Assembly: GCA_947460345.1 (NCBI GenBank)
Contig: CANHGM010000012.1
Location: 1 to 64,000, forward strand
Direction: 5' to 3'
Source of the DNA: Bacteroidota bacterium
Lineage (GTDB): Bacteria; Bacteroidota; Bacteroidia; UKL13-3
Length of the DNA stretch: 64,000 bases
The translations under genes and the position numbers were made by a program. Shown piece by piece: positions 13,395 to 37,557 of this stretch. The notes under the pieces are model-generated. The model was given only the letters and a program-made list of their open reading frames with translations. It ran no database searches and had not been told where the DNA came from. Position 1 is the stretch's first letter. Every line of letters starts with the position of its first letter.

Positions 13395-14759
13395 TTAAAA
13401 TCTTTTAGCAAATACCAGCCCTAGGCCAAGGGCGTTCGGGTTTTGCTTGGCATATCCAAAATCTATTAGAGGTGAAAGTGCGTATTTAAATTGAGCTGAA
13501 ATTTGAATTGAAAAAGTTTGACTTATATTGTAACCAAACCCAGAAGCTAAATTTGCATTTAACATATATTGTTTAATGCCAACATAGTTAACTTTATCAA
13601 TAATAGTGGTGAATCCAACTTTGTCAATATCTACTAAAGAACTATGAATCACAGTTAATTTATTAAATGATAAGCCACTTTCTACAAACCAATTCCATTT
13701 CTTATCATATTTGATATAACTAATATTTACGGGAATTTCATTAAAATAATAGTGATTTTTTATTGAATTGTTTGGATCAGTAAGTTGGGTATATTCGAAT
13801 ATAGAATCACCATTTAGTTTAAATACATTGCTGTTGTTTAAATTGTTGGTTTTAAATTCTTCTTTCATATCTATTGCTGGCATCACAGAGTCTTTTACAT
13901 TAGATTTAAAAGCGAAATTTATTTTTTCACTACAATTATATATATTGATACCTATGCCAATATACCAATTGTTTTTTATTTGAGCTTTTATAAACAAACC
14001 ACCATTGAAATCAATATTTCTATATTCAATTTTGTTTCTTAATGCAACTTGGTCTTTTTGAAGCTGATTAGCATTATTTGTAGTTTTTAAGTGCCTGTAT
14101 GAGCTTATAAGATATGTAGATGCTCCGATTATAAATTTATATATAGTATCGTTCTCGTTGCGTTTAGGCTCTATATTATTTAGTTCATTGTATGTTTCTT
14201 CAGATATTAATTCGTCTTCGAGTAGGATATTTTTTATATTATGGTCAATTGATGGAATGATGTTATGTGATTTATCAATTTTGTTATTTATATATATAGG
14301 TTGTGAATATATTTTTGATTGTTTATAAGTAGAAAATATACCAGTATAACTTTCTTTTTTTATTTCAATTTTAGGAAGATTTGGATGGTAAATATATATA
14401 GGTTTAGAAATAAATTCAACATCATTAGTACGAATAGGAGTTGGTTCTGGGTTATTTTCAGTTAATGATGTTTCGTTGTTTTGTTTGATATCAGGTTTTG
14501 AGTTAGTTTCAGAAACTAAAGAATTCTTATTTGAATTTGCATCAACATAAGGTTTAGATAAAATGTAAGTAGCAAAACCAACTACAGCAATGAAAACAAA
14601 AAAGATTAAGAATTTGGTTTTAGAATACCACGCTCCGATTTTTCTATCATCTTTAGCAGATAGATTTTTATCAATACTTTCCCAACTACTGATAGAAGGT
14701 TCTACAGCAGCATTTAAAAGCTTGTTTTTTAGTTTATGTTCAAAATCCTCGTTCAACAT
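13395..14759 (-). CDS. Inner-membrane-anchored protein with outer-membrane-barrel-like C-terminus; putative anti-sigma partner (module 1)
   Basis: 454 residues in four parts. A cytoplasmic N-terminus of about 48 residues carries PSISSWESI (residues 21-29). One transmembrane helix (about 49-67) follows. Then comes a polar linker rich in Asn, Ser, Thr and Lys (about 68-206). The C-terminal domain (about 207-454) has alternating beta strands such as NWYIGIGINIY and NLASGFGYNI and ends AKRF, as in outer-membrane beta-barrel proteins (OMP_b-brl type). The gene overlaps the upstream sigma factor by 20 bases, so the two are translationally linked. The arrangement implies that the N-terminus binds the sigma factor, but this is inferred from position and topology. 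The same architecture recurs at 35625-36980. Confidence 0.75.
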   Translation of the reverse strand: MLNEDFEHKLKNKLLNAAVEPSISSWESIDKNLSAKDDRKIGAWYSKTKFLIFFVFIAVVGFATYILSKPYVDANSNKNSLVSETNSKPDIKQNNETSLTENNPEPTPIRTNDVEFISKPIYIYHPNLPKIEIKKESYTGIFSTYKQSKIYSQPIYINNKIDKSHNIIPSIDHNIKNILLEDELISEETYNELNNIEPKRNENDTIYKFIIGASTYLISSYRHLKTTNNANQLQKDQVALRNKIEYRNIDFNGGLFIKAQIKNNWYIGIGINIYNCSEKINFAFKSNVKDSVMPAIDMKEEFKTNNLNNSNVFKLNGDSIFEYTQLTDPNNSIKNHYYFNEIPVNISYIKYDKKWNWFVESGLSFNKLTVIHSSLVDIDKVGFTTIIDKVNYVGIKQYMLNANLASGFGYNISQTFSIQISAQFKYALSPLIDFGYAKQNPNALGLGLVFAKRF

Positions 14760-15303
14760 GGTGAATATCTATATGGTATTTTTTTAATATAAGATTTTGT
14801 AAAAATTTCTTTGCTCTAGAATATTGGCTTTTACTAGTGCCTTCGCTAATATTTAGCATTGCTGATATTTCGCTGTGTTTATAACCTTCAATGGCATATA
14901 AATTAAATATTTGTCTATAACCTTCAGGTAATTTAGAGATTAAGCCTAAAATAACCTTAGCATCAAGTTTCTCAATTAAGCCTTCATCAAAACTTTGATT
15001 AACGGTTTCATAGTCATTTTCTCTTAAGTCTATAATGTTTCTTTTGTTTTTGCGATAATGTTCGATGGAGGTATTAACCATTACAGTTCTTATCCAACCA
15101 CCAAGAGCACCAGTAGATTCATATTTATAAAAGTTGGTGAAAATTTTCATAAAACCTTCTTGAAGAATATCTTCTGCCTCCATTTTATCACCTACATATC
15201 TTAAGCATATAGCAAGCATTTTTGATGCATATTTGTCATATAGGGCTTTTTGAGAACCACGGTCTCCTTTTTGGCAACCTAATATGAGAGCATCTTCATT
15301 CAT
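14740..15303 (-). CDS. ECF-type RNA polymerase sigma factor (module 1)
   Basis: 187 residues with sigma region 2 (about 20-85: YDKYASKMLAICLRYVGD, then EDILQEGFMKIF) and region 4 (about 125-180: LPEGYRQIFNLYAIEGYKHS, SEISAMLNISEGTSKSQYSRAK as the helix-turn-helix). Regions 1.1 and 3 are lacking, as is typical of ECF (group 4) sigma factors. The stop codon lies 20 bases inside the downstream membrane-anchored barrel gene, its likely regulator. A paralogous pair lies at 35.6-37.6 kb. Its target promoters cannot be read from this window. Confidence 0.92.
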   Translation of the reverse strand: MNEDALILGCQKGDRGSQKALYDKYASKMLAICLRYVGDKMEAEDILQEGFMKIFTNFYKYESTGALGGWIRTVMVNTSIEHYRKNKRNIIDLRENDYETVNQSFDEGLIEKLDAKVILGLISKLPEGYRQIFNLYAIEGYKHSEISAMLNISEGTSKSQYSRAKKFLQNLILKKYHIDIHHVERGF

Positions 15304-15439
15304 TTTGTTTCAAGTTCTACAATCAATAACGAAGATACAAACATTTTGGTTGCATCTTGTATTAATATTTATACTGAATTAAATGTAGTATCAAATTCAA
15401 ATTTATCAACTAATTTTGTGGCAATAAATATTATTAAAA

Positions 15440-35624: not shown

Positions 35625-36980
35625 TTATTTTAACGTCCATCTAAATCCTGATTCAATTCCATACCAATAGTTGTGTTGCACTAAAGGATAGTTTTTTGTA
35701 AAAGCATTAGAGAGGCTGTATCCAGTAGCCAAACCAATTTGAAAGGCAAAACGTTCTTTTAGTTGAAACCTAGCACCAAACCTAGTAATAAAGTCTAAAC
35801 CTAATATGCTTTTACGTAAGTCTTTTACAGGTATTGGGTCGCCTTCATTTTGTAAATCAAAGTTTCTTATAGCTCCTACACTTGTTGTTAATATATTTAA
35901 TGAAAAACCACTACCTATATAATAAGTGATTTTCTTTTTTGAAAATTCATAATTTACAATAATTGGAAGTTTAATATAACTAAAAGATACATCACCATTG
36001 GCTATTACAGGTAAATATTTTTTGTCGTTATGGGTAAAACTATCTGTTTTGGTTATCCATGTTGAAGTAGCACTATCAAATACATCTCTATTGCGAATAC
36101 TGTCAATAACAACAATAGTTTTTACTTGCTGCCACGTATAACTACTGCTTTGTTTTTGTGTTTGATACATAATGCCATATTGTATATTTAAATTTTTAGA
36201 ATATTCAACTATATATGATAATGAAAAGGCAAGTTGATTGCCCGAAATCTCACTTGCATTTCTTAGTTTTTTATAATAGTCAAATGAATCATTATTGGTA
36301 TTTAGCGTTCTGAATGTTCTAGCTAAAAAAAGTGATGGTTGTATATACGTTTTTCTCTTAGATGTTTCTTTCTTTTTTCTGGTATCAATAATCAATGGCT
36401 TATTACTATTGTTATGGATAGGTTTCTCTATAATGACAGAATCATAGGGTGTACTAGTTGCTTGTTCAGTTTTAACAGGTTCAACTTCTTTTATAGTCTC
36501 TTTAGTTTCTGAATTATTTTCATGTATATTATTGACATTTTCTAGCTTTGTATTTTTAATGTTTTTAATTGAATTATTTTTTTCTAAAGTAGATGTATTT
36601 AATACTTCAATTGGATAGGTATTTGTGTTTGAATTTTGCTTGTTGGGGATATAATTTATTGATGAAAATATATTCCCTGCAGGTGTTATTTCATTGCTTT
36701 GAATTGAATTTGAAACAACTAAATTAGTGTTTGTATTTGTTTCGTTCTTAATTTCTTTTGGCTCTGAAATTTTAGTTGAAATTGCTTGTGGTTGTTCTTT
36801 GTTTATGTATGTATATAACCCTCCAATTATTAGTAATAAAGCAACTATTGAAGTTCCAAAATACCATATCGTTTTTTTTCGTTTCTTTTGTTGGTTGGCA
36901 TATATTTCTTTCCAAACACCATCGCTTGGCCTCATCGTTTCATGCGATAATTTTTTAAATATATTATTTAGTGGATCCAT
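35625..36980 (-). CDS. Inner-membrane-anchored protein with outer-membrane-barrel-like C-terminus; putative anti-sigma partner (module 2)
   Basis: 451 residues with the same plan as the protein at 13395-14759. The cytoplasmic N-terminus carries PSDGVWKEI (residues 18-26), followed by a basic stretch (QKKRKK) and one transmembrane helix (about 37-59). A linker of about 150 residues is very rich in Asn, Ser, Thr, Lys and Glu (60-210). The C-terminal barrel-like domain (about 211-451) has strands such as LAFSLSYIVEY, ITYYIGSGFSLNI, FAFQIGLATGYSL and the terminal YGIESGFRWTLK. The ATG overlaps the sigma gene by 17 bases. An anti-sigma role is inferred from topology and linkage, not demonstrated. 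Confidence 0.75.
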   Translation of the reverse strand: MDPLNNIFKKLSHETMRPSDGVWKEIYANQQKKRKKTIWYFGTSIVALLLIIGGLYTYINKEQPQAISTKISEPKEIKNETNTNTNLVVSNSIQSNEITPAGNIFSSINYIPNKQNSNTNTYPIEVLNTSTLEKNNSIKNIKNTKLENVNNIHENNSETKETIKEVEPVKTEQATSTPYDSVIIEKPIHNNSNKPLIIDTRKKKETSKRKTYIQPSLFLARTFRTLNTNNDSFDYYKKLRNASEISGNQLAFSLSYIVEYSKNLNIQYGIMYQTQKQSSSYTWQQVKTIVVIDSIRNRDVFDSATSTWITKTDSFTHNDKKYLPVIANGDVSFSYIKLPIIVNYEFSKKKITYYIGSGFSLNILTTSVGAIRNFDLQNEGDPIPVKDLRKSILGLDFITRFGARFQLKERFAFQIGLATGYSLSNAFTKNYPLVQHNYWYGIESGFRWTLK

Positions 36981-37557
36981 GGATATAATTTTCTTTTAGT
37001 GTTATTCTTTTCATTAAAATTGCACGAGCTCTAGATAGATTTGATTTGGAAGTTCCCACATTTATTTGAAGCATTTCAGCTATTTCATTGTGGTTGTATC
37101 CATCAATAACAAATAAATTAAAAACTGTTTTGTATTGCTCTGGTAAATCACTCACCATTTGTAATAATTCTTTTATTTCAAATTTGTTAGTATAATCTTC
37201 AAACCCGTCTCCATATACCTGCTCATGATAATCGCTAATGCCTTCACTCATCAGTTCTCTATGTCTTGTACGGGTATGGTTTATGCATGTAGTAACCATT
37301 ACTCTTCTCACCCAACCTTCGAGTGAACCATTACATTTGTATTGATGTAAGTAATCAAATACCCTTATAAATCCATCTTGCAAAAAATCTTCAGCTTCAT
37401 CTTTACTTCTAGCATATCTATAACAAACCATCATCATGGTAGATGCATATCTATCATAGATTTCGCGTTGGGCTAGCGGATCTCTGTTCTTACACCTATC
37501 AGCTAACTCCAATTCGCTTAAGCTTTTTAAAGCCTTGCTTTGTCGTTTAAATATCAC
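36964..37557 (-). CDS. ECF-type RNA polymerase sigma factor (module 2)
   Basis: 197 residues starting at a GTG. Region 2 is at about 32-100 (YDRYASTMMMVCYRYARSKDEAEDFLQDGFIRVFDYL) and region 4 at about 135-190 (LPEQYKTVFNLFVIDGYNHN, NEIAEMLQINVGTSKSNLSRAR). It is a paralogue of the sigma factor at 14740-15303, and both are followed by an overlapping anchored-barrel gene. A minus-strand TATCTTTG box (37590-37583) lies about 25 bases before the start and may be its -7 element. Downstream in the same direction lie the barrel partner and the giant adhesin. Confidence 0.92.
   Translation of the reverse strand: MIFKRQSKALKSLSELELADRCKNRDPLAQREIYDRYASTMMMVCYRYARSKDEAEDFLQDGFIRVFDYLHQYKCNGSLEGWVRRVMVTTCINHTRTRHRELMSEGISDYHEQVYGDGFEDYTNKFEIKELLQMVSDLPEQYKTVFNLFVIDGYNHNEIAEMLQINVGTSKSNLSRARAILMKRITLKENYIHGSTK

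Follow-up and report, generated by a model that had tools for sequence, protein, structure and literature searches.

A predicted Dma/Reo-type trans-envelope anti-sigma factor and its ECF sigma factor, a tight gene pair multiplied in an uncultured Bacteroidota genome

Can a single polypeptide report the state of the outer membrane directly to a sigma factor in the cytoplasm? The question is raised by two overlapping genes in a 64,000-nt stretch of DNA (contig CANHGM010000012.1 of assembly GCA_947460345.1, from an uncultured Bacteroidota bacterium; referred to as the window). An earlier note on this stretch had described an ECF sigma factor gene overlapping the gene for a protein with a short cytoplasmic N-terminus, one membrane helix, a polar linker and a C-terminal barrel, and had proposed that this protein, if its barrel sits in the outer membrane, would link that membrane to the sigma factor by a design unlike the classical ones. 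The two open reading frames are present as it described, encoding proteins of 187 and 454 amino acids, with the partner gene 3′ of the sigma gene on the minus strand and a 20-bp overlap (14740-14759; Table 1) that probably couples their translation. In the 187-residue protein, Pfam identified Sigma70_r4_2 (E 2e-16) and Sigma70_r2 (E 6e-15), both scoring far over the Pfam cut-offs, and the general ECF superfamily model was the sole NCBIfam model over its cut-off among those listed. The pair is flanked by a corA-like gene and a divergent tatA, with uvrB also among its neighbors. The tatA-like gene (PF02416; 15440-15655, plus strand) diverges from the sigma gene, with the promoter region lying between both. 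Genes downstream of the pair vary among relatives, and an operon shared with the downstream corA gene was rejected because that arrangement is not kept in relatives.

Table 1. Positions in the window of the two sigma/partner gene pairs and of the parts of the first pair.
Feature	Position	Strand	Basis or remark
ECF-like promoter GCAAC-N16-TCGTTA	15327..15353	minus	ends 23 bp before sigma start codon
Gene of Das/EcfO-like ECF sigma factor (187 aa)	14740..15303	minus	Pfam; orthologues 44-54% identical
Sigma/partner gene overlap, 20 bp	14740..14759	minus	ORF coordinates
Putative Dma/Reo-like anti-sigma gene, 454 aa	13395..14759	minus	ORF, predicted domain order, co-conservation with sigma
Predicted cytoplasmic sigma-side module, residues 1-38	14646..14759	minus	two short helices with PSISSWESI; single copy
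Single membrane helix, residues 50-68 (AlphaFold helix 39-67)	14556..14612	minus	hydropathy and AlphaFold
Disordered polar tether, residues 69-208	14136..14555	minus	AlphaFold pLDDT
Predicted 8-stranded outer-membrane-type barrel, residues 209-454, end KRF	13398..14135	minus	AlphaFold, PDB folds, PF13568
Second ECF sigma gene, subfamily of the first	36964..37557	minus	43% identical; Pfam regions 2 and 4.2
Partner gene of second sigma, 451 aa	35625..36980	minus	N-terminal PSDGVWKEI, one membrane helix, homologous barrel

We examined the partner with AlphaFold2, using 26 aligned sequences as input, which placed helices at residues 4-16, 23-34 and 39-67. The first two, which make up the N-terminal module, were modeled with moderate confidence only (pLDDT about 55-75). 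The PSxxxWxxI motif reported for this region is PSISSWESI (residues 21-29), and its tryptophan, W26, is invariant across the 26 aligned sequences. Hydropathy gave exactly one membrane helix, as claimed before, and its N-terminal side is rich in K/R. Beyond the helix, nearly all positions from 69 to 202 had pLDDT < 50, so that the polar linker, originally put at about 140 residues, corresponds to a disordered stretch of about 135. Among the 26 aligned orthologues the length of this tether varies from 124 to 246 residues and its sequence is not conserved, whereas the barrel that follows hardly changes in length (223-246 residues). At 0.34 nm per residue, the minimum of 124 residues would reach about 42 nm in full extension, by our estimate sufficient to cross a 20-30 nm periplasm; such a floor is expected if the chain has to bridge the periplasm.

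Between residues 209 and 453, the model contains eight long strands, mostly with pLDDT > 90, and a loop at about 288-327 that is uncertain. The best matches to this fold among solved structures include the 8-stranded outer-membrane barrels OmpA (TM-score by target 0.66), NspA (0.70) and Ail (0.46-0.48), although the window barrel is only about 10% identical to these OmpA-type proteins. A sequence search of the PDB with the partner returned no match. The OMP_b-brl_2 family (PF13568) matched the window partner alone at E 3e-4, under the Pfam cut-off, and it matched 22 of the 26 aligned partner sequences at E up to 0.01; together with the eight strands, this upholds the barrel-like C-terminal domain of the earlier note. 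An NCBIfam match to MspA scored far under its cut-off and was taken as chance. The last residue is Phe in 26/29 partner orthologues, a C-terminal residue typical of substrates of the barrel assembly machinery. From the model and these features, the barrel is predicted to sit in the outer membrane. In the model, residues 209-454 share the fold of the OmpA-type barrels (OmpA, NspA, Ail; OMP_b-brl), but the peptidoglycan-binding domain that OmpA carries at its C-terminus is absent, and the barrel is joined instead to a cytoplasmic module.

A homologue of the partner was present in 40 of the 97 genomes searched, the genome of the window included, and the viral contigs searched held no relative. 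At all 29 loci where the upstream DNA could be read (the window locus counted), a sigma open reading frame lies upstream of the partner and overlaps its start. The overlap is mostly 26 bp and falls between 8 and 26 bp in nearly all relatives; at two loci it exceeds 100 bp, probably because the mechanically called start lies too early. Since the partner alignment (A1) was too variable for scanning genome contigs, we scanned with the sigma alignment, which yielded 80 named Bacteroidota loci. A profile HMM built from residues 3-38 of the partner orthologues then matched (E < 0.01), near the N-terminus, 65 of the 85 sigma partners from the genome of the window and these 80 loci. In the window, the best other open reading frame in this search was the partner gene of pair two (E 0.26), and no unrelated one matched. 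The module is also common to sigma partners without a barrel match, indicating that it goes with the sigma factor and not with the barrel. The window protein carries one copy and most relatives carry two. The module is single in the window protein and in L002-L004, its nearest relatives; tandem modules, two or three before the membrane helix, are seen at L032, L033, L005, L007, L008, L010-L022 and L073, and the L032 partner, from the genome of the window, appears to have three module motifs.

The genome of the window, 3.0 Mb in size, encodes nine sigma factors of this subfamily (L031-L039), two of which lie in the window; the other eight are 39-44% identical to the window sigma factor. Each of the nine has an adjacent downstream partner open reading frame, and most of these partners are clear one-helix proteins. 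Nine sigma/partner pairs in a genome of this size constitute a marked lineage expansion. The genes of the second pair in the window overlap by 17 bp, and its partner aligned with the A1 partner alignment at an hhalign probability of 96 over residues 219-448. Six of the nine partners have support for a barrel, namely the window protein, L033 and L038 through Pfam, L036 through a sub-threshold Pfam match only, and L032 and L034 through profile comparison; L035 and L037 are counted with neither the barrel nor the type IX form described next. A different C-terminus is found in the L039 partner (contig C41 of the same genome, 1-3220), a 361-residue protein with one membrane helix and, in place of the barrel, a sorting domain for type IX secretion (matching CHU_C at E 2e-8, and TIGR04131 just under its cut-off). 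The type IX form occurs likewise at L144, L148 and L151; in all three genomes inspected, the type IX-form pair has a further gene in the same direction closely downstream.

Among named Bacteroidota, we obtained 72 complete partners, 38 of them long (≥ 380 residues) and 34 short. Matches to the two main barrel families number 22 and 18 among the long partners, with no match among the short; type IX sorting domains were matched in about ten partners. C-terminal matches of the latter kind are at L065, L075, L093, L096, L112, L113, L074 and L066. When the C-terminal type was mapped on the sigma tree, 11 changes were required versus 32.8 in shuffles, indicating that sigma and partner evolve together; support for this tree is modest, with 15 of 85 inner branches scoring well, and some of the clustering comes from near relatives.

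Upstream of the sigma gene lies a promoter-like site, GCAAC-N16-TCGTTA. ECF promoters usually carry AAC in the -35 region and CGT in the -10 region, and an ECF motif with a CGT box has been reported from Flavobacterium psychrophilum (PMC9723704). In the nearest genus, three genomes have identical boxes with identical spacing before the orthologous sigma gene; being identical there, they count as about one independent observation. GCAAC was enriched (46 versus 11.4 in shuffles) in the DNA preceding the sigma genes of the 80 named loci. The -10 box of the window site overlaps a stretch similar to the Bacteroidota housekeeping box (TAnnTTTG). When four genomes were searched for GCAAC-N15/17-TCGTTA, each gave 4 to 6 matches, and the reversed control gave 3 to 8; with the pattern no commoner genome-wide than its control, we suggest only an autoregulatory site and claim no regulon. 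Judging from the site, the sigma factor probably autoregulates through GCAAC-N16-TCGTTA.

Comparison with characterized systems revealed that the architecture has precedents. It was described in 2022 for the partner of EcfO (Nat Commun; PMC9308784), where a sigma gene is followed by that of a large anti-sigma factor predicted to span the periplasm and to end in an outer-membrane barrel. This partner, Reo of Phocaeicola vulgatus and Bacteroides fragilis, is a likely outer-membrane stress sensor; interruption of reo activates its regulon, which has nigD members, and envelope-damaging toxins induce the same regulon (PMC9308784, PMC13114119). The Dma proteins were named in 2024, with Dma1/Das1 of Bacteroides thetaiotaomicron (PNAS e2321910121, as cited in PMC13088901), and Dma2 was described in J Bacteriol in 2026, where the phenotype of a dma2 deletion needs the das2 sigma factor (PMC13088901). 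In the Dma and Reo systems, losing the partner sets the sigma factor free. As described in these sources, Dma1/Das1 and Dma2/Das2, both of Bacteroidota, share with our pair an N-terminal anti-sigma domain, one membrane helix, a long disordered tether, a C-terminal barrel and an adjacent ECF sigma gene. The window pair differs in coming from an uncultured non-Bacteroides lineage, and the likeness is one of architecture and gene order as described. It has every structural Dma/Reo feature examined. The proposal of one chain linking the outer membrane to a cytoplasmic sigma factor is supported by structure prediction, conservation and these homologous systems, for which there is genetic evidence, but the novelty that the earlier note implied for it does not hold, the design being already known from Dma1/Dma2 and Reo (PMC13088901, PMC9308784, PMC13114119).

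Taken together, the pair very probably consists of a Dma/Reo-type trans-envelope anti-sigma factor and its cognate ECF sigma factor, which it would hold until the outer membrane is disturbed. The gene coupling, domain order, barrel fold, conservation and promoter-like site are read from sequence and structure prediction; by analogy with Dma and Reo, the N-terminal module would bind and sequester the sigma factor, and the pair may respond to outer-membrane stress. In the mechanism we propose, sigma and partner would be made together from the overlapping genes, and the module would hold the sigma factor against the cytoplasmic membrane on its inner face. With the membrane helix as an uncleaved anchor, the disordered tether of about 135 residues would cross the periplasm, and the eight-stranded barrel would be inserted in the outer membrane. 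A disturbance of the outer membrane or of the barrel would make the module release the sigma factor, through conformational change or proteolysis, and the freed sigma factor would transcribe its own operon from GCAAC-N16-TCGTTA, plus further genes.

Other readings of the partner were weighed against the same evidence. It could be a true anti-sigma factor that is nevertheless cut in the periplasm, leaving the barrel separate in the outer membrane and the membrane-bound half in charge of the sigma factor. Proteases could readily attack a linker so long and disordered, but barrel and module are fused in all readable orthologues, the tether does not fall below 124 residues, as expected of a chain that bridges the periplasm, and Dma and Reo are both modeled as spanning the envelope intact (PMC13088901, PMC13114119), which makes a cut chain improbable. 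We consider it still less probable that the partner is mainly an outer-membrane barrel in a chance operon with a sigma factor regulated by other means, its N-terminus a mere signal anchor. Small OMP_b-brl proteins are indeed many in Bacteroidota, and most of the ten PF13568 matches in the genome of the window are not beside a sigma gene of this subfamily; against this, the module is present in barrel-less sigma partners and so goes with the sigma factor, and the C-terminal type follows the sigma lineage.

An ECF sigma factor with a single-pass membrane partner is also what one would see in classical cell-surface signaling, where a FecR-type anti-sigma factor works with a TonB-dependent receptor, or with a stress anti-sigma factor of the RseA type. 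FecI/FecR/FecA likewise reports an outer-membrane event to a cytoplasmic ECF sigma factor, but does so with three proteins (reviewed in PMC9249621) and a TonB-dependent receptor barrel, whereas the window partner would combine barrel and sigma-side module in one chain. Pfam at E up to 1 detected no FecR, TonB-receptor or RseA domain in the partner, its barrel has eight strands and is not of the TonB-receptor type, and among the neighbors of the pair (corA, uvrB, tatA) there is no TonB-dependent receptor gene. FecR/FpvR-type and RseA-type anti-sigma factors were accordingly rejected, and we regard this possibility as negligible.

The Dma/Reo-type reading places a design studied in gut Bacteroidales in uncultured environmental Bacteroidota, where it is present and multiplied as a tight gene pair. 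As far as the literature was searched, what is new is the multiplication of the pairs in this lineage, the occurrence of modules in tandem and the type IX variants; for the last of these, no description was found in the titles and abstracts covered. Partners that end in a type IX sorting domain represent an anti-sigma factor whose far end may undergo export. Tentatively, and with more doubt than confidence, we speculate that these proteins form a modular set of envelope-spanning anti-sigma factors, wider than the Dma barrels described so far, in which a module in one to three copies is combined with a barrel or a type IX sorting domain, so that lineages might monitor barrel assembly or surface secretion, and in which tandem copies might hold more than one sigma factor or set a threshold. 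The floor on tether length, the variable number of modules and the exchangeable outer ends offer handles on how a single chain would report the state of the outer membrane to a sigma factor.
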